From: Verrucomicrobiales bacterium
GTDB taxonomy: Bacteria; Verrucomicrobiota; Verrucomicrobiia; Verrucomicrobiales; DEV007
DNA length: 64,000 bases
Assembly (NCBI GenBank): GCA_029213195.1
Contig: JARGNI010000026.1
Coordinates: 1-64,000, forward strand
Direction of reading: 5' to 3'
A program made the position numbers and the translations under genes. Shown in pieces: positions 23,331-45,654 of this stretch (position 1 is the stretch's first letter; the number at the start of each line of letters is the position of its first letter). The notes beneath the pieces are model-generated. The model was given only the letters and a program-made list of their open reading frames with translations. It ran no database searches and was not told the DNA's origin.

Positions 23331-25162
23331 ATCGTTATTATCTGCGCTGGTCGATTTTTGGAGGCTGTCTCCTCCTCCTTGTCGGGGCTCTGACGTGGAT
23401 CACTGCCCGGTCGCTCTCCATGGAGAAGGAATAGACCATCGCATCCGAAGAAGCTCGTCTCCGGGAGCAGGTCCGCCTGGCCCTCTGGCGAATGGAGACC
23501 GAGGCCAGCGCCGTCGTGGTCAGGGAGAGCGCTCGCCCCACGAAGCACTACCAGACGTTTCCCGAAGTGGATGCGATTGTTGAAGGGCAGGGAGTCAACC
23601 TGACTGCGGTCGAGGTGCGGGAACCTTCGCCCCTGCTCGGCACGACCCCTGATCTCGTCAAACTCCACTTCCAATGCCAGCTTTCTCCTCCGTTGGGATC
23701 CAGTGCAATGTGCAGCCCGCAGGTACCGCTGGGCGAAGATCGGACCATGGCTCTTGAACAATTTGAAGTGGAACCCGAAATCGCCGAAGCGGAGAGGCGT
23801 ATGGTCGAGATGCGGAGATTGCTGGTCGAGCATCGGAGCTGGGAGGAAATCGCGGGATTCGGTCTCATGAATCTCGGAGGGAAGACCGGCACTGCATTCA
23901 TACTTCGAGAGGATGGTACGAAGGCAACTGTCGCGGCTGTGAATTCATGGGGAACTTCCGATCAGGTCTGGATCGATTCGAATCTCATCAAGAAACCGAT
24001 CGGACAGACTCTCGATGCTGCGAAACCCCCAGCAAAGAAGATGGCCGCTGTATCCTCTGACAGCGATTCAACGGCTCAACATTCCGAGGTGGAAGAAGTG
24101 GTGGGGGACATGAAAACGATGTGGCTGGGGGATGAACTGATGCTCCTACGCCAGATCAAGGAACGAGGGAATCTGCGACTGCAGGGGGTCTGGCTTGACT
24201 GGCCAGAACTGGAAAAACGATTGCTCGCCTCAATCACGGATCTCCTGCCGGAAGCGCGCCTCCGCCCCAGTCGATCGGCAGAACTCCGCGACGATTGGCG
24301 CGCCCTCGTTACCCTTCCGATTCGGCTCGAACCCGGCTCACTTGCGGCAGACTTGACTGATAGCGCGGCGCCACTCGGGATGAGGCCAGCTCTCGCCCTC
24401 GCATGGATTTGTTTGCTCGGCACTTCCGTTGCGACTGGTTTCGTTCTCCACAGGACCATTCAGCTGAGCGAGCGTCGCGCTGCGTTTGTTTCGGCGGTCA
24501 CGCATGAACTTCGAACTCCCCTGACTACCTTTCGTCTCTATTCGGAGATGCTCGCAGAGGGAGCGATCCCCGAGGAAGAGCGGCGAAGGAGTTATTTGCA
24601 TACCCTGTGTACGGAATCCGATCGCCTGACCCGCCTTGTCGAGAACGTGCTCGCCTTTTCCCGTATCGAGCGAACCAATACTCTCCCCCAAACGGAACAG
24701 ATCACTGTCGAAGATCTGATTGAACGCATTCTGCCTCGACTCGAAGAAAGGTGCCGACAGGTTTCCCTGAAAGTAAAGGTGACCTTGCCAGATGACCCGA
24801 CCGAGCCCTCACTGAATACCGATGCCATGGTGGTGGAGCAGATCCTCTTCAACCTCGTCGACAATGCAGCGAAGTATGCGGCTCCCGATTCCGAGCCCGG
24901 TGAGATTCATTTGGAAATCTCCTGCGATCGAAAGAGGTGGCTGTTCTCGGTGCGCGACTTTGGTCCCGGTCTCTCTCCGGCAGCGATCCAGAAACTTTTC
25001 CAGCCCTTCTGCAAATCTGCGAGCGAGGCAGCCGATACCGCGCCCGGGGTTGGTCTTGGTTTGGCCCTCTGCCGTCGCTTGGCGCGCCAGCTCCGTGGCG
25101 ACCTGAAGTTTCACGCACCGGAGGGACGTGGCGCGTCATTCATCCTCTCGCTTCCGAAGTGA
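23327..25162 (+). pseudogene. Sensor histidine kinase with an in-frame TAG at codon 36
   Basis: The expected start is ATG 23327, overlapping the regulator stop (ATGA). The frame reads 35 residues with a first membrane helix (WSIFGGCLLLLVGALTWITA), then TAG at 23432-23434. The same frame then stays open to 25162 and encodes a normal kinase: a periplasmic sensor region, a second helix (LALAWICLLGTSVATGFVLH), H-box SAVTHELRTPLTTF, N-box FNLVDNAAKYA, G1 VRDFGPGLS and G2 GVGLGLALCRRLA. Restart at ATG 23492 would give 556 residues lacking the first helix and so the wrong topology. Either the gene is damaged, TAG is read through, or the base is an error. The 3' four-fifths is clearly intact. Confidence 0.8.
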
Positions 25163-25300
25163 GGGGAGCGATGAAAGTCCCTCGATGAGACTCATGGGAT
25201 TCGCTCTCAGGTTGCCGGTATTTCCTCAAACGGATCGCTTGGTTGTCCCGGTAGCGCCCAGGTTGGTGATCTCCGAGGTAAGAACCGCAGTCACCCCCGC

Positions 25301-25328
25301 TTGACTCATCGGCTCATCCCGCTATAGA
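25301..25328 (+). promoter_or_regulatory. Sigma70-like promoter of the fatty-acid-type cassette
   Basis: TTGACT (25301-25306) and TATAGA (25323-25328) with a 16-bp spacer form the best promoter match seen in the window. It lies in the 306-bp gap (25163-25468) before fabG-like 25469. Apart from this promoter and a 21-codon frame at 25357, that gap holds nothing I can identify. Expected start of transcription is near 25335. Confidence 0.6.
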
Positions 25329-25356
25329 TGACGACCCGCAGTTTTGCGTTCGTTTC

Positions 25357-25422
25357 ATGTCTGATTCCACTACAAAGCCACCTACTGGAAAGGTCGCCTT
25401 TCTCGGTCGGGATCCGCGATGA
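25357..25422 (+). CDS. Possible 21-residue leader peptide
   Basis: ATG 25357 opens a 21-codon frame ending TGA 25420-25422, starting 22 bases after the expected transcription start of the cassette. The residues (MSDSTTKPPTGKVAFLGRDP...) have no run of one amino acid, and no ribosome-binding site is obvious. It may be translated by chance or be the stub of a lost gene. Confidence 0.2.
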   Translation: MSDSTTKPPTGKVAFLGRDPR

Positions 25423-25468
25423 TTACGGGCCATTCCCAATTTTTTGAAGGCGGTTACGCCCTACCTGT

Positions 25469-26272
25469 ATGAGTGAAGAAACAGCCGCACATGAAACCCC
25501 GGATCCAGGAATGCCGGATCCAGGAATGCCTGATCCCGGTCTGGCCGGAAAGAATGCTCTCGTGACCGGGGGAAGCCGGGGAATTGGTCGCGCCATCGTC
25601 GAGCGGCTCGCAGGATCCGGGATGGACGTGACTTTCACCTACATCAGCAACGAGGAGGCGGCCCAGAAGGTGATCGATGAGAATCCGGGCCTGAAGATCA
25701 CGGCCGAGAAGGTCGATGTTCGGGATTCCGCAGCCGCCATGGCCTGTATCGAGGCCATGGTCGATCGAGTGGGGACGATCGATGTCCTCGTCAACAATGC
25801 CGGTGTGATCCGCGACAACCTGCTTCCCATGCTCGAAGACGACGATCTTTCGGCGGTTTTCGAGACCAATATCGAAGGGGTTTTCAATTTCTGCCGGGCG
25901 GCCGTGCCTTTCATGATGTCGAAACGCTCGGGGCGAATCATTAATATCAGCTCAGTTTCCGCGGAGAAGGGCGGGCGTGGGCAAACCAACTACGCCGCGA
26001 GCAAGGGGGCGATCAACTCCTTCACCAAGGCCCTGGCCGTCGAAGTGGGGCGTCGTAAAATTCTTGTGAATGCGGTTGCGCCGGGCGTGATTGAGACCGA
26101 AATGTCGCAGGAAGTTCGCGATCTCGCTGGCGATGAAATCACTTCCAATATCGTTCTAAAGCGGTATGGTCAGCCCTCAGAAATTGCGAACGCCGTCTGG
26201 TTCCTCAGTTCTGATCTTGCGAGTTACATCACGGGACAGATCCTGAGCGTGGACGGCGGATTTAAAATGTAA
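25469..26272 (+). CDS. 3-oxoacyl-ACP reductase-like SDR (FabG family)
   Basis: A 267-residue short-chain dehydrogenase that would reduce 3-ketoacyl-ACP with NADPH. Cofactor motif TGGSRGIG (33-40), NNAG (~109-112), and catalytic Ser162 (INISSVS), Tyr175 and Lys179 (YAASK) are all present, and the C-terminus (YITGQILSVDGGFKM) is typical of FabG. An extra N-terminal tail of about 25 residues contains tandem PDPGM repeats and is not part of the fold. It is the first large gene of a same-strand set with ACP, dehydratase, two ketosynthases and an AcpS-acyltransferase fusion. It therefore probably serves that pathway rather than housekeeping synthesis. The next gene starts 5 bp later. Confidence 0.9.
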   Translation: MSEETAAHETPDPGMPDPGMPDPGLAGKNALVTGGSRGIGRAIVERLAGSGMDVTFTYISNEEAAQKVIDENPGLKITAEKVDVRDSAAAMACIEAMVDRVGTIDVLVNNAGVIRDNLLPMLEDDDLSAVFETNIEGVFNFCRAAVPFMMSKRSGRIINISSVSAEKGGRGQTNYAASKGAINSFTKALAVEVGRRKILVNAVAPGVIETEMSQEVRDLAGDEITSNIVLKRYGQPSEIANAVWFLSSDLASYITGQILSVDGGFKM

Positions 26273-26277
26273 AAGAC

Positions 26278-26691
26278 ATGAGTACTCCAGACATCAGCCA
26301 GGAAGAGATCGACGCTATCTACCCGCAGGTGGCAGAAATCATCGCCGACGCACTCGGTTGTGATGAAGACGAGGTGAGCCCCGACTCTTCTCTGATCAAC
26401 GATCTCGACGCCGAGTCGATCGACTTTCTTGATATTGTTTTCCGCCTCGAGCGTGAGTTCAAAGTGAAGATCCCTCGCGGAAAGGCCGTCGAAGAAGCTC
26501 GCGGAGAGCTCTCCGAAGAGGAATTCGAGCAGGGTGGCGTGGTGACCGATGCGGGTCTTGAAAAGATCAAGGCTTACATGACCGAGGTCCCCGCGGATCG
26601 TTTTTCCAGCCCGATGAAGTCGGCGGAAATCCCCAAGCTCTTCACGACGGAGACATTCTGCAAGATGGTCATTCGCGAGCAAAAAGCGTGA
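26278..26691 (+). CDS. Acyl carrier protein-like protein with C-terminal extension
   Basis: A 137-residue acidic protein. The first ~90 residues are an ACP: the phosphopantetheine site is DAESIDF with Ser47, in place of the usual DSL. Glu-rich helices flank it. About 50 further residues (VTDAGLEKIKAYMTEVPADRFSS...) go beyond a normal 75-85-residue ACP and are of unknown role. It should be modified by an AcpS-type transferase, and one is encoded at the end of the same set (30204). It would carry the growing chain between FabG-like, dehydratase and ketosynthase partners. The ATG sits 5 bp after the reductase stop. Confidence 0.85.
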   Translation: MSTPDISQEEIDAIYPQVAEIIADALGCDEDEVSPDSSLINDLDAESIDFLDIVFRLEREFKVKIPRGKAVEEARGELSEEEFEQGGVVTDAGLEKIKAYMTEVPADRFSSPMKSAEIPKLFTTETFCKMVIREQKA

Positions 26692-26707
26692 TTCATTGAT
26701 CCCTTTT

Positions 26708-26753
26708 CCGGGCTCCGCCAGGGTGGAAACGCCCTGCCGGGGCCTTCTTGCTT
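26708..26753 (+). terminator. Hairpin with T-rich tail between the ACP and dehydratase genes
   Basis: GGCTCCG-CCAGGG and CCCTG-CCGGGGCC arms pair imperfectly around TGGAAACG and are followed by TTCTTGCTTTTTG. Within an operon this may act as a partial terminator that gives more ACP than downstream enzymes, or as an RNA-stabilising end. Function is inferred. Confidence 0.4.
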
Positions 26754-26768
26754 TTTGCTTCCCAGCTC

Positions 26769-27596
26769 ATGAGCGATCACTTCCGTTCGTTTTCTTTCGT
26801 GGATCGGATTCTCTCCGATGATGTGGGCAAGCGGATCGTCGGAGAATACGAGGTCCCAAAGTCGATCGAATCCTTTGCGCCCTCGTTGGTCTCCGAATCC
26901 ATCGGGCAATGCGCTGCGATGTCTTCGATGAGGGCGGTGGATTTCCAGTTCCGGCCGGTCGCCGGGATCGCTGGGGCGGTGGAGTTCCTTCGCGAGGTGC
27001 ATCCTGGACAGACTCTTCGTCTTGAGGCCGATCTCGCCAAGGCGGACGAAGAAGCGGTCGAATACGATGGCGTGGCGTTGGTCGATGGCGAGCCCGTCGT
27101 CCGACTCCACGATTGCCTGGGCCCCATGGTCCCGATGGCGGACTTTGACGATCCCGAAGCTGTGAAGGGCCGATACGAATTGCTCTCGGGAGAAGGCGCT
27201 GAGAGCGGGGTTTTCCCTGGGGTTCCCGAGTTTTCTTTCGAGTGGAAGGAAAAGGTCGCCGGGGAGTCGGGAGAAGCGGAATTCGTGATTCCCGAGTCAG
27301 CCCCGTTTTTTGGAGATCACTTCCCTCGAAACCCTGTGTTTCCCGGAACGCTCCTCATGAAGGTCAATCTCGCGCTCGTTTATGAGTTGGCGGAAACCCT
27401 GCCAGGAGAAGGTCGCTGGCAGGCGGATGGGATGAAGGATGTGAAGCTCCGTGCCTTTATGCCGCCGGGCGAAGTTCTCACTTTGCATGCCGAGGTCGAG
27501 GAAATCGAGGGAGACAAGGCGGTGATTTACGTCCAAAGTCGCAAAGGAAAGCGCAGAAACAGCGGGGCTCGGGTCCTGTTGTCGCGACACGAGTAA
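26769..27596 (+). CDS. Double-hotdog dehydratase-like protein (FabA/FabZ type)
   Basis: From ATG 26769 the protein has 275 residues and two fused hotdog domains. The N-half begins SFSFVDRILSDDVGKRIVGEY, the FabZ start. It lacks the HFPGxPVMPG loop but keeps a Glu on the central helix (LVSESIGQCAAM, Glu44). The C-half keeps that loop with catalytic-type His184 (FFGDHFPRNPVFPG) but has Lys198 where the helix Glu should be. FabA/FabZ active sites form between two hotdogs, His from one and Asp/Glu from the other, so this chain may build one complete site per monomer. Likely reaction: dehydration of 3-hydroxyacyl-ACP. It follows the ACP and precedes the ketosynthases. Confidence 0.82.
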   Translation: MSDHFRSFSFVDRILSDDVGKRIVGEYEVPKSIESFAPSLVSESIGQCAAMSSMRAVDFQFRPVAGIAGAVEFLREVHPGQTLRLEADLAKADEEAVEYDGVALVDGEPVVRLHDCLGPMVPMADFDDPEAVKGRYELLSGEGAESGVFPGVPEFSFEWKEKVAGESGEAEFVIPESAPFFGDHFPRNPVFPGTLLMKVNLALVYELAETLPGEGRWQADGMKDVKLRAFMPPGEVLTLHAEVEEIEGDKAVIYVQSRKGKRRNSGARVLLSRHE

Positions 27597-27601
27597 ACGT
27601 C

Positions 27602-28903
27602 ATGGCTGAAAATCAGAAACGCCGCATCGCTGTCACCGGGATCGGATTGGTCACTCCTGTGGGAAATTCCACGGAGGAGACCTGGAAGAATTTGCAGGAG
27701 GGCAAAAGCGGAGCGGGCCCCATCACCAATTTCGATGCCAGTGGTTTCTCCACCACGATTGGTGCCGAAGTGAAAGACTACGATGTGGCCGATGTCCTCG
27801 AGGACACGAAGCAGCTGAAGTATTCCTCTCGCTCCCACAAGTTCGCTCTCGGTGCTGCTGCCGAAGCCCTCGCCGATGCCGGGATCGCTCCCACCGCCGA
27901 GAATTCCCATCGCTGGGGACTCAGTGTCGGTGCCGGGATGATGACGAACGAATATTCCGACCTGAAGCAGGTGTTCGAGCATGCCACCGAGGATGGGTAT
28001 TTTCAGCCCGATGGTCTTCTTTCCGACGGCTACGAGCTCAATCCCCTCGATATCTGCCGCTGGCAGTGCAACGCGGGGCTTGGGATTCTGACCAAGCAAT
28101 TTGGTATCCGCGGTTATGCCACCTCGGTTCACACGGCCTGCGCCTCGGGAGGGCAGGCGATCGGGACTGCGCTCAAGGCCATGCGCCGCGGGCAATGTGA
28201 TTACATGCTAGCCGGGGGATTCGACTCGATGTTGAACCCGATCGGGATTTCCGGATTCTGTCTTCTTGGCGCGCTTTCGACCGACAACGATAATCCGACG
28301 GGAGCGAGTCGTCCTTTTGATGAAACGCGCAATGGATTTGTTCTCGGAGAAGGCGCTGGGTTTCTCGTTCTCGAGGACTGGGACGCGGCCGAGGCGCGCG
28401 GGGCTTCGATTTACGCCGAACTCGCCGGCGACGGCAATTCGCTGAGTTGCTATCGCATCACCGATTCTCCCCCCGATGGGAACGGTCCGATTCAGGCGAT
28501 CGAGCAGGCGCTCGGAGACGCGGATACGACGATGGAGGAGATCGACTACGTCAACGCCCATGGCACCTCGACGCAGATGAATGATCGCAGCGAATGTGCG
28601 GCGATGAAGGCCGTCTTCCAGGGGCGAATTTCCGAGGTCAACGTGAGCTCGACCAAGAGCTGTATGGGGCACCTCATTGCTGCTGCCGGGGCTGTCGAAG
28701 CCGCGGTCTGTTGCCTTGCGATTCGAGACAGTATTTCACCGGTCAACGCGAACTACGAGAATCCGGATCCTGATTGCGACGTCAACCTGGTCGTCGGAGA
28801 ACCCAAGCCGGGCCGGATTCGTGCCGCGCTGACGAATTCGCTGGGATTCGGCGGGTCGAACAGTTCGCTTGTGTTCCGCAACCCTGAGGAGGTCAACGTA
28901 TGA
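27602..28903 (+). CDS. Beta-ketoacyl-ACP synthase, FabF/KAS II type (first of two)
   Basis: A 433-residue condensing enzyme with the complete Cys-His-His triad: Cys180 in VHTACASGGQA, His320 in NAHGTSTQ, His357 in CMGHLIAAAG, plus the C-terminal GFGGSNSSLVF. It would extend acyl-ACP by decarboxylating malonyl-ACP. The order ACP, dehydratase, KAS, KAS matches aryl polyene or specialised fatty-acid clusters rather than primary fab genes. It starts 5 bp after the dehydratase and overlaps the next ketosynthase by 4 bp (ATGA), which implies equal expression. Substrate length and type cannot be read. Confidence 0.92.
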   Translation: MAENQKRRIAVTGIGLVTPVGNSTEETWKNLQEGKSGAGPITNFDASGFSTTIGAEVKDYDVADVLEDTKQLKYSSRSHKFALGAAAEALADAGIAPTAENSHRWGLSVGAGMMTNEYSDLKQVFEHATEDGYFQPDGLLSDGYELNPLDICRWQCNAGLGILTKQFGIRGYATSVHTACASGGQAIGTALKAMRRGQCDYMLAGGFDSMLNPIGISGFCLLGALSTDNDNPTGASRPFDETRNGFVLGEGAGFLVLEDWDAAEARGASIYAELAGDGNSLSCYRITDSPPDGNGPIQAIEQALGDADTTMEEIDYVNAHGTSTQMNDRSECAAMKAVFQGRISEVNVSSTKSCMGHLIAAAGAVEAAVCCLAIRDSISPVNANYENPDPDCDVNLVVGEPKPGRIRAALTNSLGFGGSNSSLVFRNPEEVNV

Positions 28904-30174
28904 GCAGGAAAGAAGGAAAGCTCGTCTTTACGGGAAGCGGAATCGTCAATGGTTCCGGGAGTTCGGTCGCGGAAATCTGGGAACAGGTTTCGAAGGGTGA
29001 ATCCTCGGTTCGCCCCTACGAGCAGTGGGATGGAGCCAACTGGCCCGTAAAGGTGGCGTCCGAGATTTCTCTCCGTCCGCGAGATCTGGTGCCGGAACGG
29101 AAACTGCACAAGTCGATTTCCCAAACGGACATGTTCGGGATCTACGCTTCGGAGCAGGCGATCTCAAACTCCGGCTTCCTCGATCAGCGGGAAGGGCTCG
29201 AGGAAGAAGCCTTGAATCAGTTCAACGATCGCAGCGGTCTCATCGTGGGATCGGGGGCCGGCAGTTATTGCTCCAACTACGATTACTTCCCCCTGATGGA
29301 GGAGGTGAACACCGAGTTGCCGCAGTTTGGAAAAGAGCTCAGCAATATGGTGACCCCGATGTGGTTGCTCAAGAATCTCCCGAACAATGTTCTGTGCCAC
29401 GTCGGAATTCGTTCTCAGCTCAAGGGAACCAACGCCTGCATCACGAACCAGTGCTCCAGCGGGATCATGGCGGTCGCCGAGTCCGCTGCCGCGATCTGGA
29501 ACGGAGAGGCGGACCGGATCGTTGCTGCGGGTCACGATGACCCTTTCGAGCCCGAGATGGTGCTGCAGTTTCATAAGCTTGGACTGATGTCGGGAGAGGC
29601 ACCGAGACCCTTTGATGTGAATCGAGACGGCACCGTCTTTGGCCAGGGCGCCGCTGCCGTGGTCATCGAGAAGGAAGCGGAGGCCAATTCGCGTGGCGCG
29701 ACCGTGCTCGGCGAGTTTCTCGGGTTCGGGTGTTGCAGTGAGGCGACGGGTATCCTCGATCTCGATCCGGAAGGAGACGGAGTCACCCGAGCGATCGAGC
29801 AGGCCCTCGCCGATGCGGATCTCACCCCCTCGGATGTCGGAATGATCTGTGCGCATGGAAACGGAACCCCGGCTTCTGACCGCACCGAAGCATTCGGAAT
29901 TCGCGAAGTCTTCGGCGATGCCATCCCTCCGGTAACCAGTTTCAAGTGGGCCTACGGCCACATGATCGGCGCCAGTGGAATTACAGATCTGGTCCTGAGC
30001 CTTGAATGTTTGCGACAGGGGACCGTGCCGGGTATTGCGACCCTGAGCGAGGTCGAGCCGGGGATTGCGGATTTTCCGGTGCAGGAAGCCAGCACCGAGC
30101 CGACCAGTGATGTGGCTCTCGTGATCTGCCGTGGATTCGGGGGAATGAACGTGGTTCTCGCGATTCGAGCTTAG
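28900..30174 (+). CDS. Beta-ketoacyl-ACP synthase-like protein (second of two)
   Basis: A 424-residue thiolase-fold protein diverged from its neighbour but with Cys185 (TNQCSSGIMAVAE), His319 (CAHGNGT) and His354 (AYGHMIGASG) in place. It is therefore not a classical chain-length factor, which lacks the Cys. The C-terminus GFGGMNVVLAIRA is normal. It overlaps the preceding ketosynthase by 4 bp. It may form a heterodimer with it, or act at a different step such as starter choice (inference). The insertion TNQC in place of the usual VSTAC is unusual. Confidence 0.88.
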   Translation: MSRKEGKLVFTGSGIVNGSGSSVAEIWEQVSKGESSVRPYEQWDGANWPVKVASEISLRPRDLVPERKLHKSISQTDMFGIYASEQAISNSGFLDQREGLEEEALNQFNDRSGLIVGSGAGSYCSNYDYFPLMEEVNTELPQFGKELSNMVTPMWLLKNLPNNVLCHVGIRSQLKGTNACITNQCSSGIMAVAESAAAIWNGEADRIVAAGHDDPFEPEMVLQFHKLGLMSGEAPRPFDVNRDGTVFGQGAAAVVIEKEAEANSRGATVLGEFLGFGCCSEATGILDLDPEGDGVTRAIEQALADADLTPSDVGMICAHGNGTPASDRTEAFGIREVFGDAIPPVTSFKWAYGHMIGASGITDLVLSLECLRQGTVPGIATLSEVEPGIADFPVQEASTEPTSDVALVICRGFGGMNVVLAIRA

Positions 30175-30203
30175 TCCGCCGAACTTCCTCGAATACCAAA
30201 GGG

Positions 30204-31394
30204 ATGCGCCAGGGGATCGACACCGTTGAAATTTCGAGGATCGAGAAACTGATCTCGGATCTTGGGGAGGAGGGGCTTCGTGACTTCTTTTCTGAAACCG
30301 AGCTCGCCGACGCCGGGACTGGGAAGGCCCAGGCCCAGAAGTTGGCGGCCCGGTTTGCGGCGAAGGAAGCCTGCTGCAAGCTCTTCCCCAAGGAAATCTG
30401 CCTGGGAACGATCGAGCCGGTCGACTTCGCGGTGGTACGGGACGGTTACGGGAAACCAACCGTCGAACCGTCGGAGAAGGGGCGGGCGGTCATGGATCTG
30501 CACTTGGTCGAGGACATCGATCTTTCCCTAACGCATACGGAAAGCACGGCCACGGCGATTGCCTCGACCGAGATCCGCGAGTTGGTCGTCCCCTGGTATG
30601 GGAAGCTCGCCTATTACATCCTTCCGATTCGTCGGAAGGTCGTCCTCGAGAATCTGAACCGAGTCTTCGGCGAGACCCTTTCCACGAACCAGATCGTGGC
30701 GATCGCACAGCAGTTCTATGCCCACTACCTCAAGTGCTTTGGGGAATTCTTGAAGATGCCTTTCCTCTCGGAGTCGCAGAAAAAAGACCTGATCCGCATC
30801 GAGGGAGGAGAGAATCTCGAGCAGGGCTTGGCCAAGGGAAAGGGAGTGCTCATCCTGACTGGGCATTTCGGCAGCTGGGAAGTTGCGACCGTGGCGGGCA
30901 TTTCCCAATTCACCGAGTTCCGAGGACGCTTTCATTTCATTCGCCGCCCCCTCAAACCGAAGTGGTTCAATGATTTCGTGATGCGTCGCTTTCGCCAGGC
31001 CGGTTTCGGCACCCTCGACAAGGCCGGGTCACTCGACGATATCCTCGACCTGCTGGAGGGGAATGAGATCGTGGTTTCGATTTTCGATCAGTTCACGATC
31101 AAGAAATACGGGATCCTCTCCGAGTTTTTCGGACACCAGGCCAATACCTTCAAAAGCCTGTCCGTTCTCGCCCAGTTCACTGGCGCTCCTGTGATTCCTT
31201 CGTCGAGTTGGCGCGAGCCCGATGGGACCCATGTCCTCAAGTTTGGGAAGCCTGTCGAGGTCGTCACCGAGGGGCGGACCCGGGACATCATCAAGAAAAA
31301 CACGAAGCGGTTCAATGAGGCCCTTGAGAAGATCATTCTCCGCCATCCGGAGCAGTGGATCTGGATGCACAAGCGCTGGAAAAAAATCCTCTGA
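30204..31394 (+). CDS. Fusion: holo-ACP synthase (AcpS) domain and LpxL/HtrB-type acyltransferase
   Basis: A 396-residue two-domain protein. Residues 1-125 match AcpS: GIDTVEISRI with Mg-binding Asp6, and ARFAAKEACCK with Glu55; length is that of a full AcpS. Residues ~128-396 match the Kdo-lipid A late acyltransferases (LpxL/LpxM): GHFGSWE with His221 and Glu226 (HX4E), then FIRRPLK and IFDQFTIKKYG. It could load phosphopantetheine on the neighbouring ACP and then move the finished acyl chain onto a lipid acceptor at the inner membrane. The acceptor is unknown. I know of no common protein with this pair. The start ATG lies 30 bp after the second ketosynthase. Confidence 0.85.
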   Translation: MRQGIDTVEISRIEKLISDLGEEGLRDFFSETELADAGTGKAQAQKLAARFAAKEACCKLFPKEICLGTIEPVDFAVVRDGYGKPTVEPSEKGRAVMDLHLVEDIDLSLTHTESTATAIASTEIRELVVPWYGKLAYYILPIRRKVVLENLNRVFGETLSTNQIVAIAQQFYAHYLKCFGEFLKMPFLSESQKKDLIRIEGGENLEQGLAKGKGVLILTGHFGSWEVATVAGISQFTEFRGRFHFIRRPLKPKWFNDFVMRRFRQAGFGTLDKAGSLDDILDLLEGNEIVVSIFDQFTIKKYGILSEFFGHQANTFKSLSVLAQFTGAPVIPSSSWREPDGTHVLKFGKPVEVVTEGRTRDIIKKNTKRFNEALEKIILRHPEQWIWMHKRWKKIL

Positions 31395-31421
31395 AAATGC
31401 CGCAAAATACGCGCTGATTTA

Positions 31422-31443
31422 TTGTTCATTTTTATTTGAACAA
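31422..31443. promoter_or_regulatory. Palindrome before the GbsR-like regulator, candidate operator
   Basis: TTGTTCA (31422-31428) and TGAACAA (31437-31443) are perfect inverted repeats around 8 bp of A+T. The site is 119 bp before the regulator ATG, in the 167-bp gap after the acyltransferase. Autoregulation by the dimeric regulator is inferred. Confidence 0.4.
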
Positions 31444-31561
31444 CCTCGGGATATCGCTTACGCCTTCCCGAAGCTTGCCAATTCATGGCATTTCGAAACA
31501 CGAAAATTCTGCAGACGGTTTGTGGGAAAGTCTCCCCAAAGAACCGAGGGCGGTAGCTTGT

Positions 31562-32041
31562 ATGGTCAGTCAACTCACCAAGCTGGAAGAGGAATCGATC
31601 GACTATTTTGTCTCGTTCGTTCAGATCTTTGGCTTTCCGAAATCGGTCGGACAGATCTATGGGCTGATGTTTGTCTCCGGGGAGCCCATGGTCATGGGGC
31701 AACTCGTTGAGCGCCTTGAGATCAGCAAGGGAAGTGTCAGCCAGGGCTTGGCGACCCTGAAGGCATTGGGAGCGATCGTCCCCGTAGAGGTCGAGAACGA
31801 TCGGCGAGAGCATTTCCAGGCCGACCTCGATGTCTCCCGAATCGTGAATCATTTCTTTTCCGAGCGACTCGAGCCTAGACTGCAGAACGGTAGTCGCCGA
31901 CTCGAGGGGATGCTCGAACTGGCGCGCGAGGGGGGAGATACCAAGGAAAACGAGCCCCTGAACCGGCTCAAGGCCCTCAAGAAATGGCAGACTCGGGGGC
32001 AGCGAGCCATCCCCTTCATCAAGAGATTTCTCAAAAATTGA
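31562..32041 (+). CDS. GbsR/MarR-family transcriptional regulator
   Basis: A 159-residue winged-helix protein from ATG 31562; a longer open frame upstream is not conserved-looking. The pattern YFVSFVQIFGFPKSVGQIYGLMFVSGEPM followed by LVERLEISKGSVSQGLATLKALGAI is the GbsR-type HTH, with a helical dimerisation tail. In Bacillus GbsR controls glycine betaine synthesis; in Planctomycetes and Verrucomicrobia such genes often head exopolysaccharide loci, as here. It lies 8 bp before the first polysaccharide gene and may control the whole locus. A palindrome at 31422-31443 is a candidate site. Confidence 0.82.
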   Translation: MVSQLTKLEEESIDYFVSFVQIFGFPKSVGQIYGLMFVSGEPMVMGQLVERLEISKGSVSQGLATLKALGAIVPVEVENDRREHFQADLDVSRIVNHFFSERLEPRLQNGSRRLEGMLELAREGGDTKENEPLNRLKALKKWQTRGQRAIPFIKRFLKN

Positions 32042-32049
32042 TTCCACTT

Positions 32050-33141
32050 ATGGAATTCATCGACTTAAAGACTCAGCAAGAGCACATCGGGGACGAGATT
32101 CGCGAGCGAATCGAAACGGTCCTCCAGCATGGGCGCTACATCCTCGGACCCGAAGTGGAAGAGTTGGAAACCGCGCTCTGCGACTATCTTGGAGTGAAGC
32201 ACTCGATCGGGGTTTCGTCCGGAACCGATTCGCTGCTCATTGCGATGATGGCCCTCGGGATCGGCCCCGGTGACGAGGTGATCACGGTTCCTTACACGTG
32301 GATTTCCACGGCGGAGATGATTGCTCTCGCCGGCGCGAAGCCCGTCTTTGTCGATATCCAGCCCGACACCTGGAACCTGGATCCAGAATTGCTCGAGGCG
32401 GCGATTACGGAGAATACCAAGGCGATCATGCCGGTTGGGATTTACGGTCAGACGGCCGACATGCGGGCGATCAACGAGATTGCCCAGCGGAATGGAAACA
32501 TCCCGGTGATCGAAGACGCGGCCCAGTCCTTTGGCGCGACCCATCATGGAGTGAAGTCCTGCAACCTTTCGACCATCGGCAGTACTTCGTTTTTTCCGTC
32601 GAAACCCCTCGGGGGATATGGTGATGGAGGAGCCGTTTTCACCAACGATGACGAGTTGGCGGAGAAGATGCGACAGATTCGTGTGCACGGTCAGGCGGGG
32701 AGAAATCACCATCCTCTCCTGGGCGTGAATGGTCGTCTCGATTCCATCCAGGCGGGTTTGCTGATTCCCAAGTTGAAGATCTTCCCGAACGAGATCCGCC
32801 TGCGACAGGAAGTGGCGGCTCGCTACAGCGAAGGGATTGCGGGGGTCGAGGGAGTTTCGGCACCGATCATCGGAGAAGGCAACACGAGTGTCTATGCTCA
32901 GTATACCATTCTGTGTGAAGACCGACCCGCCGTGGAAGCGCGCCTCCAGTCGGCTGGGGTTCCCTGCGTCGCCTACTACGCGGTGCCGCTTCACTTTCAG
33001 CCCGTCTTTGATTCCCTGGGATACGAGAAGGGAGACTTCCCCGTCACCGAGCAAGTTTCGGATCGGTGTCTGTCTCTGCCGATGAGTCCCTACCTCGGAG
33101 CGGAAGACCAGGAAAAAGTCATCTCTGCCGTCGTCGGTTGA
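32050..33141 (+). CDS. DegT/DnrJ/EryC1 aminotransferase (WbpE-like)
   Basis: A 363-residue PLP enzyme from ATG 32050. The start [21 protein letters not shown] is typical of WbpE/WlbC-type sugar aminotransferases. PLP-binding Lys185 lies in [15 protein letters not shown], and the cofactor Asp in [11 protein letters not shown]. Such enzymes transfer an amino group from Glu to a keto group of a nucleotide sugar, for example UDP-3-keto-GlcNAcA. The next gene is a UDP-HexNAc dehydrogenase, which fits a 3-amino-uronic acid route, but the oxidoreductase WbpB is not seen in the window. The product is therefore uncertain. Confidence 0.88.
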
Positions 33142-33170
33142 GAGACGAAATTTTCGCCCTCCTATCTGTT

Positions 33171-34442
33171 TTGAAAGCGAATCCCAGAATTGCCATCGTT
33201 GGTCTCGGCTATGTCGGACTTCCCCTAGCGGTTTGTTTCGCTCGGAAGTTTGACGTGATTGGTTTTGATATCGATCAGGGACGGATTTCCGAGCTCGAAA
33301 GAAATCACGATCGAACACGAGAGGTCGCGGAAGAGACGCTCGAAAAAAGCACGCTCGGTTTCAGTTGCGAGGCGGAGGATCTTCGGACTGCAGATGTGAT
33401 CATCGTCACGGTGCCGACCCCGATCGATGAACACAAGCAACCAGATCTTCGTCCCTTGCTAGGCGCTTCGGCTACCGTGGGAAAAAATCTCACCGCCGGC
33501 AGCATCGTCGTCTACGAATCGACGGTGTATCCCGGGGCTACGGAAGAAGATTGTATTCCGATCCTGGAGAAGGAGAGCGGTCTGCGATGGAAGACCGATT
33601 TTCACGTGGGCTATTCTCCCGAGCGAATCAATCCTGGAGACAAAGAGCACACCGTGGATCAGATCCTCAAGGTGGTTTCCGGGGATACCGAAGAAGTCGC
33701 CGAGTATCTTTCAACTCTCTACGGCGAGATCATCACCGCAGGAATTTTTACGGCAGCCTCCATCAAAACGGCTGAAGCCGCGAAGGTCATCGAGAACTGT
33801 CAGCGCGACATCAACATCGCTTTCGTCAACGAGCTGGCTCTCATCTTTCAGCGAATGGGAATCGATACTCAGAGCGTTCTCGAAGCCGCCGGAACGAAGT
33901 GGAATTTTCTTCCCTTCAAACCGGGGCTCGTGGGAGGTCACTGCATCGGAGTGGATCCCTATTACCTGACTCACAAAGCCGAGTCGATCGGGTATCACCC
34001 CCAGATCATTCTGGCCGGTCGAAGAATCAACGACGGGATGGGCGCTCACGTTGCCAATCGCGTCGTGAAGCTGATGATCCAGCGCGACCGACGGGTCAGG
34101 GGAGCGAAAGTGCTTATCCTGGGAATCACCTTCAAGGAAAATTGTCCCGACATTCGGAACTCTCGGGTGATCGATATCATTCGCGAGTTGGAGGAGTTTG
34201 GTATCGAAGTTCATGCCTACGATCCCTGGGCGGACCCGGAGGAGGTGAAGGAAGAGTATGGGATCACTCTTTGCGATCTCGCGGCAGGCTCCAGCGGTTC
34301 GGAACGCTACGACGCGATTGTCCACGCGGTCGCCCATCGGTCCTTCGAAAACCTCGACCTGTCCCGGTTGGGCAGCGAAGACGCCATTCTCTACGACGTG
34401 AAATCGAGTCTCTCGGTCGACGAGATCGATGAGCGTCTCTAG
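33171..34442 (+). CDS. UDP-N-acetylhexosamine 6-dehydrogenase (WbpA/WbpO/TviB type)
   Basis: A 423-residue nucleotide-sugar dehydrogenase. I start it at TTG 33171, which places the dinucleotide-binding strand [15 protein letters not shown] at residue 6. The catalytic residues are visible: Lys205 in [19 protein letters not shown] and Cys258 in [18 protein letters not shown]+ is used twice to oxidise C6 to a uronate. [16 protein letters not shown] and [13 protein letters not shown] are closest to the UDP-GalNAc/GlcNAc group. It follows the aminotransferase by 29 bp and precedes the flippase by 12 bp. Amidation of the resulting uronate by an asparagine-synthase-like enzyme (45655) is possible. 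Confidence 0.9.
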
Positions 34443-34454
34443 TCGATAACCATT

Positions 34455-36206
34455 TTGAATCCACTCAAAAAATTTCTCTCGATCATGACGCCTCCCGAGA
34501 GGAAGCGTCTCGTCTGGGTGGTGTTGTTGATGGCTTTCGGCGTGGGGCTCGAAGCCCTGACGCTTGGTCTCGTGGCTCCGGCCTCATCGATTATTTTTGG
34601 TGAGAAGAGGGAGGAGTTCTTGTCTCTTCTCCCTGGTAGCCTAGGTAATTTGGATCCCAGCCTACTGATCGCCATCCTACTTTTTGTAGGCATTCTTTTC
34701 GTCGTCCTCAAGAATGTGATCATCGGATACCAGATCCGGGTCCAATTCGGATTCATCGCCAAGGCGAAGCAGTCCGTTTCTTCACGACTATTTTCCAATT
34801 ATCTTCGCGCTCCGTATTCCTTCCATCTTACGCATAATTCCTCGGCCTTGATCCGGAATGTGGTCAACGAGGTCAATGAGTTCGAGCTTCGTGTGTTGAT
34901 GCCTTGGATGTTGCTTCTGAGTGAGGGCTTGGTGACCTTTGGACTGATTACGGTGTTGCTGGTCCTGAATCCGATCAACACCCTCGCAGTGGGGCTGCTC
35001 CTCGGATTGGGAGGAGCGGGATACCTTCTCGTGACGCGAGGCAGGGTGGATCGCTGGGGGCACGTTCGATTGGAAAATGAGGAGCTGAGAATTCGATCTG
35101 TCCAACAAGGCTTGGGTGGGATCAAGGAAGTAAAGCTTCTCGGTCTCGAGGATGTTCTCCTCGAGGACTACAAGATCTACAACAAGAGCTCCGCCGAGGC
35201 CTTCGCCGCCCAGGCATTCTTCAGCCAGGTTCCGAGGTTGCTACTCGAGGTGATTGCCTTGAGTGCTGTCATTGTCGTTGTGTTCATCTCCTTTCTCAGC
35301 GGCCTCGATACGGAAGAGATGGTCACGAGTCTCGGTCTTCTCGCTGTAGCTGCATTCCGGTTGTTGCCTTCGACGAATCGAATTATCTCGGCCTGCAGTT
35401 CGCTGAAATTCGGAGCGGCTTCTCTGAACAATGTCGCCCAGGAGCTGGCTGAAAGTGAAAAGGTGGAACAATTTTTGTCCGAGCAACGCGAGAGCGAACC
35501 GATCACTTTTTCTTCATCGATCGATATCGAAGGGTTGAGCTACCAGTACCGAGAGGATAGCAAAAAGGTCCTCGATCAGATCTCTCTGAAAATCCCCCAC
35601 AACGCCTTCGTTGGGGTAATCGGGGAGAGTGGAAGTGGAAAAAGTACGCTCGTGGATGTGATTCTCGGATTGCTTCCTCCCACCGAGGGGCAAGTCAAAG
35701 TGGACGGAGTGCCGATCTCCTCGAACCTGAGGTCCTGGCAGGAAAAGATTGCCTACGTCCCGCAGCATATCTACCTCGCAGATACCTCGATTCGAAAGAA
35801 CGTGGCTTTCGGGATTCCTGACAACGAGATTTCGTCAGAGCGGGTCGAGGAGATGCTGAAGCTTGCTCACCTCGAAAGTCTCATAGCGGACCTCGAAGAA
35901 GGCATTGAAACCGAAGTCGGAGAGCGGGGAGTGCGACTCAGCGGAGGTCAATGTCAGAGAATCGGAGTGGCGCGCGCCTTGTATCGAGATCCCGATGTGA
36001 TCGTGTTTGACGAAGCGACCAGCGCCTTGGATGATGACTCACAAGAAAAGGTGATGGATGCGATCAAAGGATTGAAAGGCTCGCGAACCATCATCATGAT
36101 TTCCCATCGACTTTCGACGATCGATTATTGCGATGTGGTTTTCGAGTTGAAGGGTGGGAAAGCTGGCCCTCTCGTGTCTCCTGAATCTGTTCTCGAAAGT
36201 AGGTAA
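34455..36206 (+). CDS. ABC transporter with fused membrane and ATPase domains (MsbA/PglK-like flippase)
   Basis: A 583-residue half-transporter starting at TTG 34455. Residues ~1-320 carry six membrane helices (type IV exporter fold), and ~340-583 an ATPase with Walker A GESGSGKST, Q-loop AYVPQHIYLADTSI, signature LSGGQCQRIG, and Walker B VIVFDEATSALDD. As a homodimer it would flip a lipid-linked oligosaccharide across the inner membrane, like Campylobacter PglK. No Wzx-type flippase is present in the window, so this protein probably fills that role, and Wzy-type proteins are present (55166, 56443). MsbA-like lipid A transport is the alternative. Confidence 0.85.
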   Translation: MNPLKKFLSIMTPPERKRLVWVVLLMAFGVGLEALTLGLVAPASSIIFGEKREEFLSLLPGSLGNLDPSLLIAILLFVGILFVVLKNVIIGYQIRVQFGFIAKAKQSVSSRLFSNYLRAPYSFHLTHNSSALIRNVVNEVNEFELRVLMPWMLLLSEGLVTFGLITVLLVLNPINTLAVGLLLGLGGAGYLLVTRGRVDRWGHVRLENEELRIRSVQQGLGGIKEVKLLGLEDVLLEDYKIYNKSSAEAFAAQAFFSQVPRLLLEVIALSAVIVVVFISFLSGLDTEEMVTSLGLLAVAAFRLLPSTNRIISACSSLKFGAASLNNVAQELAESEKVEQFLSEQRESEPITFSSSIDIEGLSYQYREDSKKVLDQISLKIPHNAFVGVIGESGSGKSTLVDVILGLLPPTEGQVKVDGVPISSNLRSWQEKIAYVPQHIYLADTSIRKNVAFGIPDNEISSERVEEMLKLAHLESLIADLEEGIETEVGERGVRLSGGQCQRIGVARALYRDPDVIVFDEATSALDDDSQEKVMDAIKGLKGSRTIIMISHRLSTIDYCDVVFELKGGKAGPLVSPESVLESR

Positions 36207-36262
36207 CCCACCCCCAGCTGGATTCTGGAAGGATTCTCTCAATTTCGCAAAAACCCAAATTT

Positions 36263-37360
36263 ATGAATACGCCTCTATTTAAAGTCTTCATGCCGGAATC
36301 GGTAATTCCGAAGCTTCAAGAAACTCTATTCAGCGGATATATCGCGGAAGGTGAGAAAGTTTTCGAGCTCTCGAAGCAGATGCGTGAGTTCGTAGGAAAC
36401 GAGAATCTTGTTCTCATGAATTCCTGTACTTCCGCTCTCGCAATCGCATTGAGGCTTTCGGGGACCAAACATGGTTCCGAAGTCATTTCGACCCCATTGA
36501 CTTGTGTCGCTGCGAACCAGGCAATCTCGTCCCTGGGTGCGAATGTTGTCTGGGCAGATGTGGAAAAGGAAACGGGGATGGTGGACCCATCGACGCTGGA
36601 GGATCTGATCACGGAGAAGACCACCGCAATCATGATTCTGCATAAGGAAGGGGATCCAGCCAAGCTGGATGAGATCCTGACAATTGCTCATCGCCATGGG
36701 ATCAAAATGGTTGAAGACGCTGCCCACGCGATCGGCGCCGAATACAAAGGAAAGAAAATCGGGAGTTATGGGGACTTTGCCTGTTTCTCATTCCAGGCGA
36801 TCAAGCACATCACGACCGGAGATGGAGGAGCTCTGGCTTGTGGTGATCCGGAAGACGCCGCCAGAGCAAGAAAGATGAAGTGGCTCGGAGTGGATAAAGA
36901 GAAAACCTATGCCGGTAGTCCGTGGCTCGAAGACATCGATGACTGGGGCTATAAGGCGAATATGCATGATATTTCTGCCACGATCGGGTTGGAAATGATG
37001 CCTCACTTGCAGTCCATCATCGATGCCCACAACCGGAATGGCAGATTGCTCGACGAGCTCCTGCAAGGAGTCTCCGGCATAAATCTCGTCCCACGTTCCG
37101 AGGAGCATTTTTCGACTTACTGGGCCTATTGCCTTCTGGTTGAGGAGAGAGAGAAGCTGATGAAAAAGCTGGCCGATCATGGATTTGGTTCAGGGCAGAT
37201 CCATCCCCGAAATGACCGTTACAGTTTGTTTGCGTATGCAAACAGAGAGTTGCCGGGTGTTGATTATTTCGATCCTCGTGAGTTGGCCATTCCTTGTGGA
37301 TGGTGGATGGAGAAAGAGGACGTCGGCAGGTTGGCTGATGTAATCAAGAGTGGCTGGTAG
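36263..37360 (+). CDS. DegT-family nucleotide-sugar aminotransferase (second)
   Basis: A 365-residue PLP enzyme, distinct from the one at 32050. Lys181 in FSFQAIKHITTGDGGAL binds PLP, and VEDAAHAIGAEYKGKKIG holds the cofactor Asp. The sequence around PLTCVAANQAISSLGANVVWADV is like GDP-perosamine or 4-keto-6-deoxy-sugar aminotransferases. It directly precedes CapG-, cupin-, CapE- and LpxD-like genes with 21-35 bp spacing. A C4 amination of the 4-keto sugar made by the CapE-like enzyme is thus likely (inference). The DNA here is more A+T-rich than the region before it. Confidence 0.88.
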   Translation: MNTPLFKVFMPESVIPKLQETLFSGYIAEGEKVFELSKQMREFVGNENLVLMNSCTSALAIALRLSGTKHGSEVISTPLTCVAANQAISSLGANVVWADVEKETGMVDPSTLEDLITEKTTAIMILHKEGDPAKLDEILTIAHRHGIKMVEDAAHAIGAEYKGKKIGSYGDFACFSFQAIKHITTGDGGALACGDPEDAARARKMKWLGVDKEKTYAGSPWLEDIDDWGYKANMHDISATIGLEMMPHLQSIIDAHNRNGRLLDELLQGVSGINLVPRSEEHFSTYWAYCLLVEEREKLMKKLADHGFGSGQIHPRNDRYSLFAYANRELPGVDYFDPRELAIPCGWWMEKEDVGRLADVIKSGW

Positions 37361-37381
37361 AAACCAAATTTATATATCCTT

Positions 37382-38506
37382 ATGAAAGTAATGACCATCG
37401 TAGGTACTCGCCCGGAGATTATCCGGATGGCGAGTATCATCAAGAAACTGGACCAATATTGTGATCATGTTCTTGTCCATACTGGGCAAAATTATGATTA
37501 CGAACTGAACAAAGTCTTTTTCGAAGACCTTGAATTGCGAGATCCTGACCACGTTCTCGACGTTCGTTCGGACACTCTTCATGGACAACTCGGGAACATT
37601 ATTTCGCAGACCGGCGACATTATTTCCCGGATCATGCCGGATGCTGTTGTCGTTCTTGGAGATACCAATTCTGCGCTTTCGGTAATCAACGCCAAGCGAT
37701 TGAAGATCCCGATTTTTCATATCGAGGCAGGTGATCGATCCTTCGACGAGAATGTTCCGGAAGAGCTGAATCGTCGGCTCGTCGACCACACGGCTGACGT
37801 GAATCTCGCCTACACGGAGTACAGTCGACGAAATCTCCTGCGAGAAGGCATTCATCCCAATAAGATCTTCGTGATCGGGAGCCCAATTCGCGAGGTCTAT
37901 CTCGATATGTGGGACAAGTTTGAGTCCTCGAATATTCTCTCCGAGTTGAATCTTGAGAAAGGGGATTTCTTCACCGCGAGTATTCACCGGGAAGAGAACG
38001 TCGATCTACCGGGTCGTCTCGAGACAATGGTCGATAGTTACAATGCTCTTTGTGAGCGTTACGACATGCCCATCGTGGTTTCGACCCACCCAAGAACTCG
38101 TGTGCGGCTCGAGCAGCAGGGTTTGCTGGAGAAAAGCGACAAGCGCATCATCTGGCACAAGCCGTTTGGCCTGATCGATTTCATCTGGCTCCAAGTCAAT
38201 TCCTTCTGCGTGGTTTCCGACAGTGGGACGATTCACGAGGATTCAAGCATCCTGGGCTTCCCGGCGATCGCAATTCGGAAATCGACGGAGAAAGCGGAAT
38301 CAATCGACGCAGGTCACTGTGTGGTGACTGGCTTGGAGTCTGAATCGGTGCTCGATTCAGTGAACATCGCGGTGACGGAAAAGATCGATCCAGTCGAGTC
38401 TCCCGTTCCTGACGCCTACACGCCTCGTCGTGTTGCGAACAAGGTGGCGCGAATCGTAGTTGGTATGACCAAGATCGTCGACGAACGCGTCTGGGGGAAG
38501 AAGTAG
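37382..38506 (+). CDS. UDP-HexNAc 2-epimerase (WecB/CapG/FnlC-like)
   Basis: A 374-residue epimerase of the GT-B fold. It starts MKVMTIVGTRPEIIRMASII, and holds HTGQNYDYELNKVFF, GDTNSALSV, HIEAGDRSFDENVPEELNRRLVDH, and SDSGTIHEDSSILGFPAIAIR, all standard for the UDP-GlcNAc 2-epimerase group. The form with 'AGDRSFD' rather than 'AGLRS' is that of CapG/WbjD/FnlC, which epimerises C2 of UDP-6-deoxy-L-talo-HexNAc in L-FucNAc synthesis. Its neighbours (cupin, CapE-like) support this reading. It starts 21 bp after the aminotransferase. Confidence 0.88.
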   Translation: MKVMTIVGTRPEIIRMASIIKKLDQYCDHVLVHTGQNYDYELNKVFFEDLELRDPDHVLDVRSDTLHGQLGNIISQTGDIISRIMPDAVVVLGDTNSALSVINAKRLKIPIFHIEAGDRSFDENVPEELNRRLVDHTADVNLAYTEYSRRNLLREGIHPNKIFVIGSPIREVYLDMWDKFESSNILSELNLEKGDFFTASIHREENVDLPGRLETMVDSYNALCERYDMPIVVSTHPRTRVRLEQQGLLEKSDKRIIWHKPFGLIDFIWLQVNSFCVVSDSGTIHEDSSILGFPAIAIRKSTEKAESIDAGHCVVTGLESESVLDSVNIAVTEKIDPVESPVPDAYTPRRVANKVARIVVGMTKIVDERVWGKK

Positions 38507-38516
38507 GATCAAAGAG

Positions 38517-38945
38517 ATGAGCAAGTGGAAATCTCCATGGGAGCTGAGGAATCCGAATTTCTATGAGGACCCTCGGGGGGGACTCTTCGAGGTTCTTCGA
38601 TTCAAGGATGACGAAGTTCCTGGAGTCGGGCAAATCTACACGTTCTCGATTGCCCCCGGGATGCGTCGGGGAGATCACTACCACAAGAAGAAGGAGGAAT
38701 GGTTTACGTGCGTGAGTGGGACTGCCATCGTTCTTCTCAGTTCGGATGATGGGAAATGCGAGGCCATTGAACTCTCCGCTACGAAACCAGGGGTGATCTA
38801 TTCCGCACCTGGTACCTCTCATGCGTTGGTCAACGAGAAGAGCGAGCCTGCCGTGATCGTTTCCTACGGATCCAAGCAGCACGATCCGGATGATCCGGAT
38901 ACGTTTGCAAATGAGGCTTATCCTGGATGGACGGGGGCTTCCTGA
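38517..38945 (+). CDS. Cupin resembling the C-terminal domain of CapF/WbjC
   Basis: A 142-residue single cupin. It has the glycine-poor cupin motif 1 GDHYHKKKEEWFTCVSG with two His, and motif 2 YSAPGTSHALVNEKSE. In S. aureus CapF this domain epimerises C3 of the 4-keto sugar, and an N-terminal SDR reductase follows on the same chain. Here only the cupin is encoded and no reductase lies beside it, so the 4-keto group may be used by the aminotransferase at 36263 instead. It lies between CapG- and CapE-like genes (10 and 35 bp gaps), reversed from the capEFG order. Confidence 0.82.
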   Translation: MSKWKSPWELRNPNFYEDPRGGLFEVLRFKDDEVPGVGQIYTFSIAPGMRRGDHYHKKKEEWFTCVSGTAIVLLSSDDGKCEAIELSATKPGVIYSAPGTSHALVNEKSEPAVIVSYGSKQHDPDDPDTFANEAYPGWTGAS

Positions 38946-38980
38946 GATTTCTTCTCAAATAACAAACGAGAGATTAGAAT

Positions 38981-40881: not shown

Positions 40882-41006
40882 GTTCAACGGCTCTGGGAGC
40901 CGGTGTTGTAAGCAATTTCGAGGTGCGCAGAACTCTCTGATTGTATCAACTTAGCTAAAGAGCGAGTTCAAAATTTGAAGTGCGGCATCGTGCTGCAGAC
41001 CTCTGG

Positions 41007-42197: not shown

Positions 42198-42296
42198 TTA
42201 GCGCAAGAAGATAGGATTGAGGGGCGAGTTAAAAGAAGTCATTCCGATTCTACTCCTCATTCCACAATCGTCCGAATCGTCGTTCCGTAGTCAACA

Positions 42297-43490: not shown

Positions 43491-43542
43491 CGCAGAACGT
43501 TCGGTTCAAAGACTTTCAGGATTTTCGCCACTGACAATAGAA

Positions 43543-45591: not shown

Positions 45592-45654
45592 GTTTGCCTT
45601 CCATTCCGAAAGACCGATGAAGCTAGTCTCTATTATCTCTTAGCGAGAGAATCT

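Follow-up and report, generated by a model that had tools for sequence, protein, structure and literature searches.

The closest described system to the gene set reported here is the rhizobial acpXL-lpxXL cluster, which comprises an acyl carrier protein (ACP), a dehydratase, two ketosynthases (KS) and an LpxL-type acyltransferase, with a dehydrogenase in its six-gene versions, according to the portions of the published accounts drawn on here (PMC5613085, PMC11901934); the other sources cited below are likewise used in excerpt. The aryl polyene set of E. coli, as listed in PMC8253772, has an acyl-ACP synthetase, a methyltransferase, a thioesterase, and Lol-like and resistance-nodulation-division (RND) transport genes, with no phosphopantetheinyl transferase (PPTase) in that list. 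The type II fatty acid synthase (FAS II) clusters associated with ladderanes in anammox bacteria carry radical S-adenosylmethionine (SAM) and phytoene-desaturase-like genes (PMC2649909). Here we describe a six-gene cassette in a 64,000-nucleotide stretch of a Verrucomicrobiales genome (positions 1 to 64,000 of contig JARGNI010000026.1; hereafter the window) that ends in a single protein joining an AcpS domain to an LpxL-type acyltransferase. The cassette is real, conserved and apparently undescribed, yet it is built on a known plan; what is new is the AcpS-LpxL fusion, a double-hotdog dehydratase that would retain one composite active site, and the spread of the set over phyla. On balance we favour reading it as a dedicated cassette for type II fatty acid elongation, linked to an envelope acyltransferase whose LpxL domain would attach the chain to lipid A or to a glycolipid close to it.

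Computation shows which genes the set contains and in what order, which catalytic residues they encode, and that the genes are conserved and diverge together. Six reading frames lie on the + strand, at the places and in the order given by an original prediction made from the DNA letters alone. They encode a FabG-type 3-oxoacyl-ACP reductase of the short-chain dehydrogenase/reductase (SDR) type (25469..26272; PF13561/PF00106, with the FabG models of NCBIfam scoring best), a dedicated ACP of 137 aa with a conserved C-terminal extension (26278..26691; PF00550, 41.4 bits; AESID phosphopantetheine motif), a double-hotdog FabA/FabZ-like dehydratase (26748..27596; PF07977 in the C-terminal half), a predicted active FabF-type beta-ketoacyl-ACP synthase, KS1 (27602..28903), a second FabF-like protein, KS2 (28900..30174), which is probably a chain-length-factor-like partner (both PF00109/PF02801, KS1 with its catalytic residues), and the AcpS-LpxL fusion (30204..31394). 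The Pfam domains of all six proteins exceed the curated cut-offs. For the dehydratase, alignment with relatives points to a start codon at 26769 rather than 26748, and the successive intergenic distances are 5 bp, 56-77 bp, 5 bp, a 4-bp overlap and 29 bp, in keeping with the tight spacing originally described. The promoter proposed for the set found no support: there is no sigma-70-type site in the 306-bp gap before FabG, and a scan of 25100-31600, limited to promoters of the sigma-70 type, returned one site, within KS1, where shuffled sequences average 2.0.

The original prediction also held that no described system has this content, which is true of the exact content only, since the rhizobial cluster, on the published portions, has nearly the same content and order. 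Shared features are a dedicated ACP, a dehydratase, two KS (one of which lacks the Cys in the rhizobial case) and an LpxL-type transferase in last place. Eight AcpXL-type clusters, located through their AcpXL-type ACP, were fetched for comparison: all have ACP, FabZ, a degenerate KS and a KS, two of the eight have FabG, and seven have LpxXL, with no LpxL matched within the fetched stretch of the remaining one (L158). The order ACP, dehydratase, two KS, LpxL is thus common to the window and seven of the eight. There are also differences. The KS pair is swapped, the degenerate KS standing first in the rhizobial clusters and second in the cassette; rhizobial FabF2XL is without the catalytic Cys in 5/5 cases; the rhizobial dehydratase is a single-hotdog FabZ; and neither an AcpS fusion nor FabL is mentioned in the published portions, whereas both belong to the cassette set, FabL being found in relatives of the window.

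Filing the cassette as a member of the rhizobial cluster family was rejected, the window ACP having missed the cut-off of the AcpXL-type model NF005079 (53.8 bits against 83), while general ACP models reach up to 58.1. The use of NF005079 as a marker is backed by the ACP of locus L152, which was found with that model and matches the specialised ACP 2kw2 at 151.1 bits; the window ACP matches AcpXL 2kw2 at 3.7e-09, but other ACPs match it equally well. A profile comparison tilts towards AcpXL, the cassette ACP scoring 77.8 with it and 61.8 with housekeeping ACP, the latter set consisting of five near-identical sequences. The C-terminal extension is present in the nine rows shown of 53 aligned cassette ACPs. 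For the acyltransferase, NF005120, which we take to be the model standing for LpxXL, scores 88.4 bits on the fusion against a cut-off of 273.

Phylogenies of the ketosynthases and acyltransferases leave room for a distant kinship. In a tree of 44 KS rows, KS1, KS2, F1XL and F2XL (the last two labelled from gene order) form four clades with 100/100 support, none nested in another; a union of KS1 with FabF1XL is not rejected (approximately unbiased test, p-AU 0.44), and KS2 and FabF2XL fall on one side of a branch with weak support (70/59). In the LpxL tree (38 rows) the cassette LpxL form their own 100/100 clade, the deep forks are weak, the program warns of long branches meeting, LpxXL included, and a union of cassette LpxL with LpxXL is likewise unrejected (p-AU 0.301). 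Treating the separate clades as exclusion of kinship was therefore dropped, as these values do not bear it out. Two further signs of kinship are weak. When 398 Pseudomonadota genomes were searched with the dehydratase profile, five of nine non-self matches were at AcpXL loci, and of the four remaining genomes three were outside the sample screened for AcpXL; in a profile search, moreover, FabZXL occupies the first 4 of 21 ranks, although the scores of FabZ and FabZXL overlap.

The cassette shares with the aryl polyene cluster KS, the KS-chain-length-factor (KS-CLF) arrangement, ketoreductase (KR), dehydratase (DH), ACP and an acyltransferase that has been proposed to anchor the product, but the ligase, methyltransferase, thioesterase and transport genes of the published portion are absent from the six cassette genes and the four neighbours scanned. 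Furthermore, the cassette has an AcpS domain where the published aryl polyene list has no PPTase, and it has a FabL-like enoyl reductase in 45 of 56 loci; the two sets are therefore distinct on the published description, as originally proposed. In common with the ladderane clusters it has FAS II genes, among them divergent fabF paralogues, but none of the ten proteins scanned at the cassette resembles the radical SAM or phytoene-desaturase-like genes reported there. VexE, the LPLAT-type transferase of the Vi capsule anchor, belongs to the LpxL-type fold family and performs an ACP-dependent transfer to a sugar; unlike the cassette, it is described in the relevant part of PMC9597891 with no mention of an AcpS domain or FAS genes. 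No description of the AcpS-LpxL fusion or of the cassette was found in the literature searched, subscription journals and preprints lying outside the scope of the search.

In the fusion protein, the AcpS domain spans approximately residues 1-122 (PF01648, 39.3 bits over residues 4-89, cut-off 25) and the LpxL-type acyltransferase approximately residues 128-394 (PF03279, 133.5 bits over residues 128-394, cut-off 22.3). Among 38 aligned fusions with 45-78% identity to that of the window, D6, R50, E55, K59 and H111 of the AcpS part and H221 and E226 of the LpxL part are invariant; H221/E226 constitute the HX4D/E motif of the LpxL/LpxM family in its HX4E form, and D6, E55 and K59 are what we take to be the AcpS catalytic residues. 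The fusion also scores 53.8 bits with TIGR00556, above the cut-off of 45.35. Its AlphaFold model (predicted local distance difference test, pLDDT, 88.8; predicted template modelling score, pTM, 0.86) matches PatA, LpxM (5kn7) and AcpS (3qmn) in Foldseek. Other AcpS proteins are trimeric. In all 11 matches to fused proteins the LpxL domain starts at profile position 37-42, and in 18 of 19 matches to unfused ones it starts at 8-24, the remaining one at 124; the late start indicates that the AcpS domain occupies the place of the LpxL N terminus. We do not claim that fusion entailed the loss of a membrane anchor, because an N-terminal hydrophobic segment (Kyte-Doolittle 19-residue window, at least 1.6) occurs in just 10 of 26 unfused LpxL, and one anywhere in the protein in 3 of 38 fusions.

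A local frameshift or assembly join as the origin of the fusion was ruled out by two-domain matches in many genomes. Loci were collected through the fusion (the best 80 of 107 candidates), so the collection is blind to cassettes without one. In 73 of 79 loci, assigned to Verrucomicrobiota, Methylomirabilota and Pseudomonadota, both domains are covered, the other six being partial or matching in the LpxL part only. This collection overlaps a set of 189 genomes of the same order, 24 of which have a two-domain match (in one of the 24, G073, with a stop codon inside the match), namely 21 of the 27 genomes of the window's genus and 3/3 of another genus; additionally, G051, also of the window's genus, has a match to fusion residues 1-54 at a contig end. 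In a phylum-wide draw of 387 genomes at least one carries the fusion among the matches listed (up to four scored candidates per genome), this being the window genome itself (G000). Methylomirabilota have the fusion in 6 of 95 genomes, with LpxL-only matches in two more, and among 398 Pseudomonadota genomes a full-length match to the dehydratase profile was listed in one, the Zwartia centre itself (up to six scored candidates per genome). Sixty-three plasmid records matched, none covering 80% of the fusion. The cassette thus looks rare and patchy. Both Zwartia panacis and Z. vadi, which are cultured, carry it; the taxonomy of metagenome-assembled genomes (MAGs) is that of the record titles as written, some of which (Akkermansia muciniphila, Bordetella parapertussis) are doubtful.

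Gene order was scored by tblastn with identity thresholds in the 56 of 80 loci with at least 6.2 kb of upstream sequence, and absences may represent divergent genes. Forty-five loci share the order FabL, FabG, ACP, dehydratase, KS1, KS2, fusion; of the other 11, three are without FabL, three are without the dehydratase, three have only DH-KS1-KS2-fusion, one has only KS1-KS2-fusion and one has the fusion alone. This last, L075, is the sole locus of the 56 with a fusion but no cassette gene, so that the occurrence of fusions solely as isolated genes, which would have spoken against the original prediction, is not what is found. Pairwise divergences of the six genes are correlated in all 15 gene pairs (r 0.91-0.96, no value being reached in 500 permutations), which indicates that the set is inherited as a unit. 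Also, two Methylomirabilota cassettes, L087 and L098, fall in different clades of the KS1, KS2 and LpxL trees (the place of L098 being unstarred in the KS trees), which suggests that whole sets have been transferred between lineages. As for an unfused intermediate, two Methylomirabilota genomes have a close unfused LpxL (G1018 and G1020), but the 18 kb retrieved from them contained none of the cassette genes.

The ketosynthases were compared in frames of 380-480 aa. Cassette KS1 has Cys, His, Lys and His in 59 of 59 frames. KS2 has His, Lys and His in 49 of 49; its Cys is present in 27, the window included, and in the other 22 the position holds T, S, G, A or I. Of the 27 Cys-bearing KS2, 26 come from records titled Verrucomicrobiota or groups therein, and the remaining one is that of the window. 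KS2 may consequently be active in the window, where the Cys is present.

The dehydratase has a predicted double-hotdog fold (pLDDT 95.3), with Glu50 (26895-26897) in the N-terminal half and His191 (27318-27320) in the C-terminal half invariant in all 47 frames longer than 240 aa. Compared with FabZ, the N-terminal half retains the Glu position and has lost the His segment, while the C-terminal half retains the His and not the Glu. In FabZ-type active sites the His and the acid are supplied by different hotdogs, so one composite site would remain. The dehydratase domains of polyketide synthases (PKS) likewise consist of two hotdogs and carry the His in the first half, and relative to these the arrangement of His and acid would be reversed. 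In a fold comparison against the PDB, TesB thioesterases and PKS dehydratase domains matched at similar scores, so fold alone cannot fix the activity.

The S..YxxxK pattern occurs in 57 of 57 cassette FabG frames. A short tandem repeat at 25499-25543, in the FabG N terminus (PDPGM, PDPGM, PDPGL), precedes for the most part the region that aligns with relatives. Most relatives have a further SDR upstream (SDR1), with Y-X6-K in place of YxxxK in 37 of 40 frames so labelled; one of the other three is truncated and two lie away from a cassette. In one relative SDR1 scores 323.4 bits with the FabL model NF005975 (cut-off 328), the next-best model giving 193.9. No FabL-like gene was found at the cassettes of the window, L062, L074 and L076, and the frame of L071, one of the 45 loci with the full order, has just 164 aa. 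The description of the set as self-contained therefore has to be qualified, since most relatives add a FabL-like enoyl reductase which the window cassette lacks. This absence could be taken, together with the resemblance of KS1, a variable-Cys KS2, KR and DH to a KS-CLF system, to indicate that the chain is not fully reduced, the product being a polyene or some other unsaturated compound similar to the aryl polyenes. We regard such a product as improbable: the FabL-like enoyl reductase stands within the set in 45 of 56 loci, and the ligase and transport-type genes that the available part of PMC8253772 lists for E. coli are absent from the six cassette genes.

All the cassette enzymes are of FAS II types, and the set could in principle be a spare general fatty acid synthase that feeds phospholipids, with the fusion incidental. 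The window genome (5.9 Mb, 115 contigs), however, has beyond the cassette a second AcpS, a second LpxL-family protein, another FabF-like KS, a FabI-like enzyme, and LpxC-FabZ next to LpxA, so that the cassette comes on top of a housekeeping fatty acid synthase and of parts of a lipid A pathway. The order and the fusion are kept across phyla, and the sole acyltransferase in the set is LpxL-type, so that we give a spare synthase very little credence, less than a polyene product.

Returning to an elongation cassette coupled to an envelope acyltransferase, we infer every catalytic step, as well as the KS1-KS2 pairing, the length of the chain and the identity of the acceptor as lipid A. Phosphopantetheine would be loaded onto the cassette ACP by the AcpS domain, and on this ACP KS1, probably paired with KS2 as its chain-length partner, would elongate the acyl chain. 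With neither KSIII nor a malonyl transferase in the set, the primer and malonyl units would be supplied by housekeeping metabolism. FabG would then reduce and the double-hotdog dehydratase dehydrate, and the chain would be saturated by an enoyl reductase, the FabL-like one in relatives and presumably the genome's FabI-like enzyme in the case of the window. Once complete, the chain would leave the ACP and, by the action of the LpxL domain, be joined to a hydroxyl group on lipid A or on a closely related glycolipid. The originally proposed scheme, in which a dedicated ACP is served by elongation enzymes of its own and the product passes to a lipid or glycolipid, accords with the domains and residues and with the lipid A genes next to the cassette in three relatives, and the established rhizobial parallel counts in its favour, as described in the portion cited (PMC5613085).

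Among these three relatives, L130 has waaA (PF04413) and lpxB (PF02684) directly upstream of the cassette and a glycosyltransferase family 9 (GT9) gene after it, as identified with Pfam, and L131 and L135 have the waaA-lpxB pair likewise upstream by tblastn. GT9 genes, of the heptosyltransferase family, stand near the cassette in 6 of the 80 loci, and L139, an unfused LpxL relative (34% identity), is two genes from lptB (TIGR04406, 337.5 bits, cut-off 240). These neighbours favour lipid A as the acceptor.

Several observations weigh on the other side. Just three of the 80 loci stand beside waaA-lpxB, all of them MAGs of one series (Centralia), and these same three show no dehydratase between ACP and KS1 by tblastn. 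The fusion misses the AcpS equivalog cut-off of TIGR00516 (48.5 against 59.8), and PatA structures match its model as well as LpxM does. LpxL-family enzymes also act on other glycolipids, as do PatA and VexE, the latter acting on UDP-N-acetylglucosamine (UDP-GlcNAc) according to the part of PMC9597891 used here. The whole-cell fatty acids of Z. vadi and Z. panacis, as given in the available part of PMC10535154, include nothing listed above C18, although the MIDI method employed may not report very long chains. Furthermore, the window cassette adjoins a polysaccharide cluster rather than lipid A genes. A MarR-like regulator (PF12802; 31436-32041), possibly controlling the cassette or the polysaccharide genes, begins 41 bp after the cassette and overlaps the next start, that of a surface polysaccharide cluster (31984-47601) with two DegT aminotransferases, a UDP-sugar dehydrogenase, an ABC exporter, a UDP-GlcNAc 2-epimerase, a 4,6-dehydratase, a hexapeptide/LpxD-like protein, a glycosyltransferase, an AT3-SGNH acyltransferase and an asparagine synthase.

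This succession of cassette, MarR-like gene and polysaccharide cluster, together with the VexE precedent for the Vi antigen in the published portion, is what one would expect if the same assembly line served another acceptor, the LpxL domain acylating a surface polysaccharide at its lipid anchor or at one of its early sugars. We consider this acceptor unlikely, if less so than a polyene product, in that the same-genus loci whose flanks were inspected (L064, L066, L070 and L078) have different neighbours, and at the three loci where lipid genes are informative they indicate lipid A. Two loci have further genes upstream of the cassette: L097 (715-3256) has a 446-aa condensation-like protein (PF00668, E 0.0015, below cut-off), and L133 (365-3286) has a hexapeptide protein together with a lipoprotein-like protein that weakly resembles alpha/beta hydrolases (E 0.0056). 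These are possibly an enlarged form of the system.

Private lipid A acyl assembly lines are described, as far as our searches found, for rhizobia and their kin. A further line in three phyla, either separately built or a very distant branch, would give this solution a greater age or mobility than has been assumed. More tentatively, and with appreciably less confidence than we place in the coupled elongation cassette itself, we propose that this is a horizontally moving lipid A remodelling cassette, found in three phyla, which would make an acyl chain unseen in any lipid A, and in which the AcpS half, trimeric like other AcpS proteins, would replace the N-terminal part of LpxL, activate the ACP and dock the loaded ACP for transfer, a single enzyme thus acting at the start and at the end of the line. 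Since the fusion would couple carrier activation to the final transfer, the specificity of the pathway is directly testable with purified proteins, and because the cultured Z. panacis and Z. vadi carry the cassette, its product can be sought.

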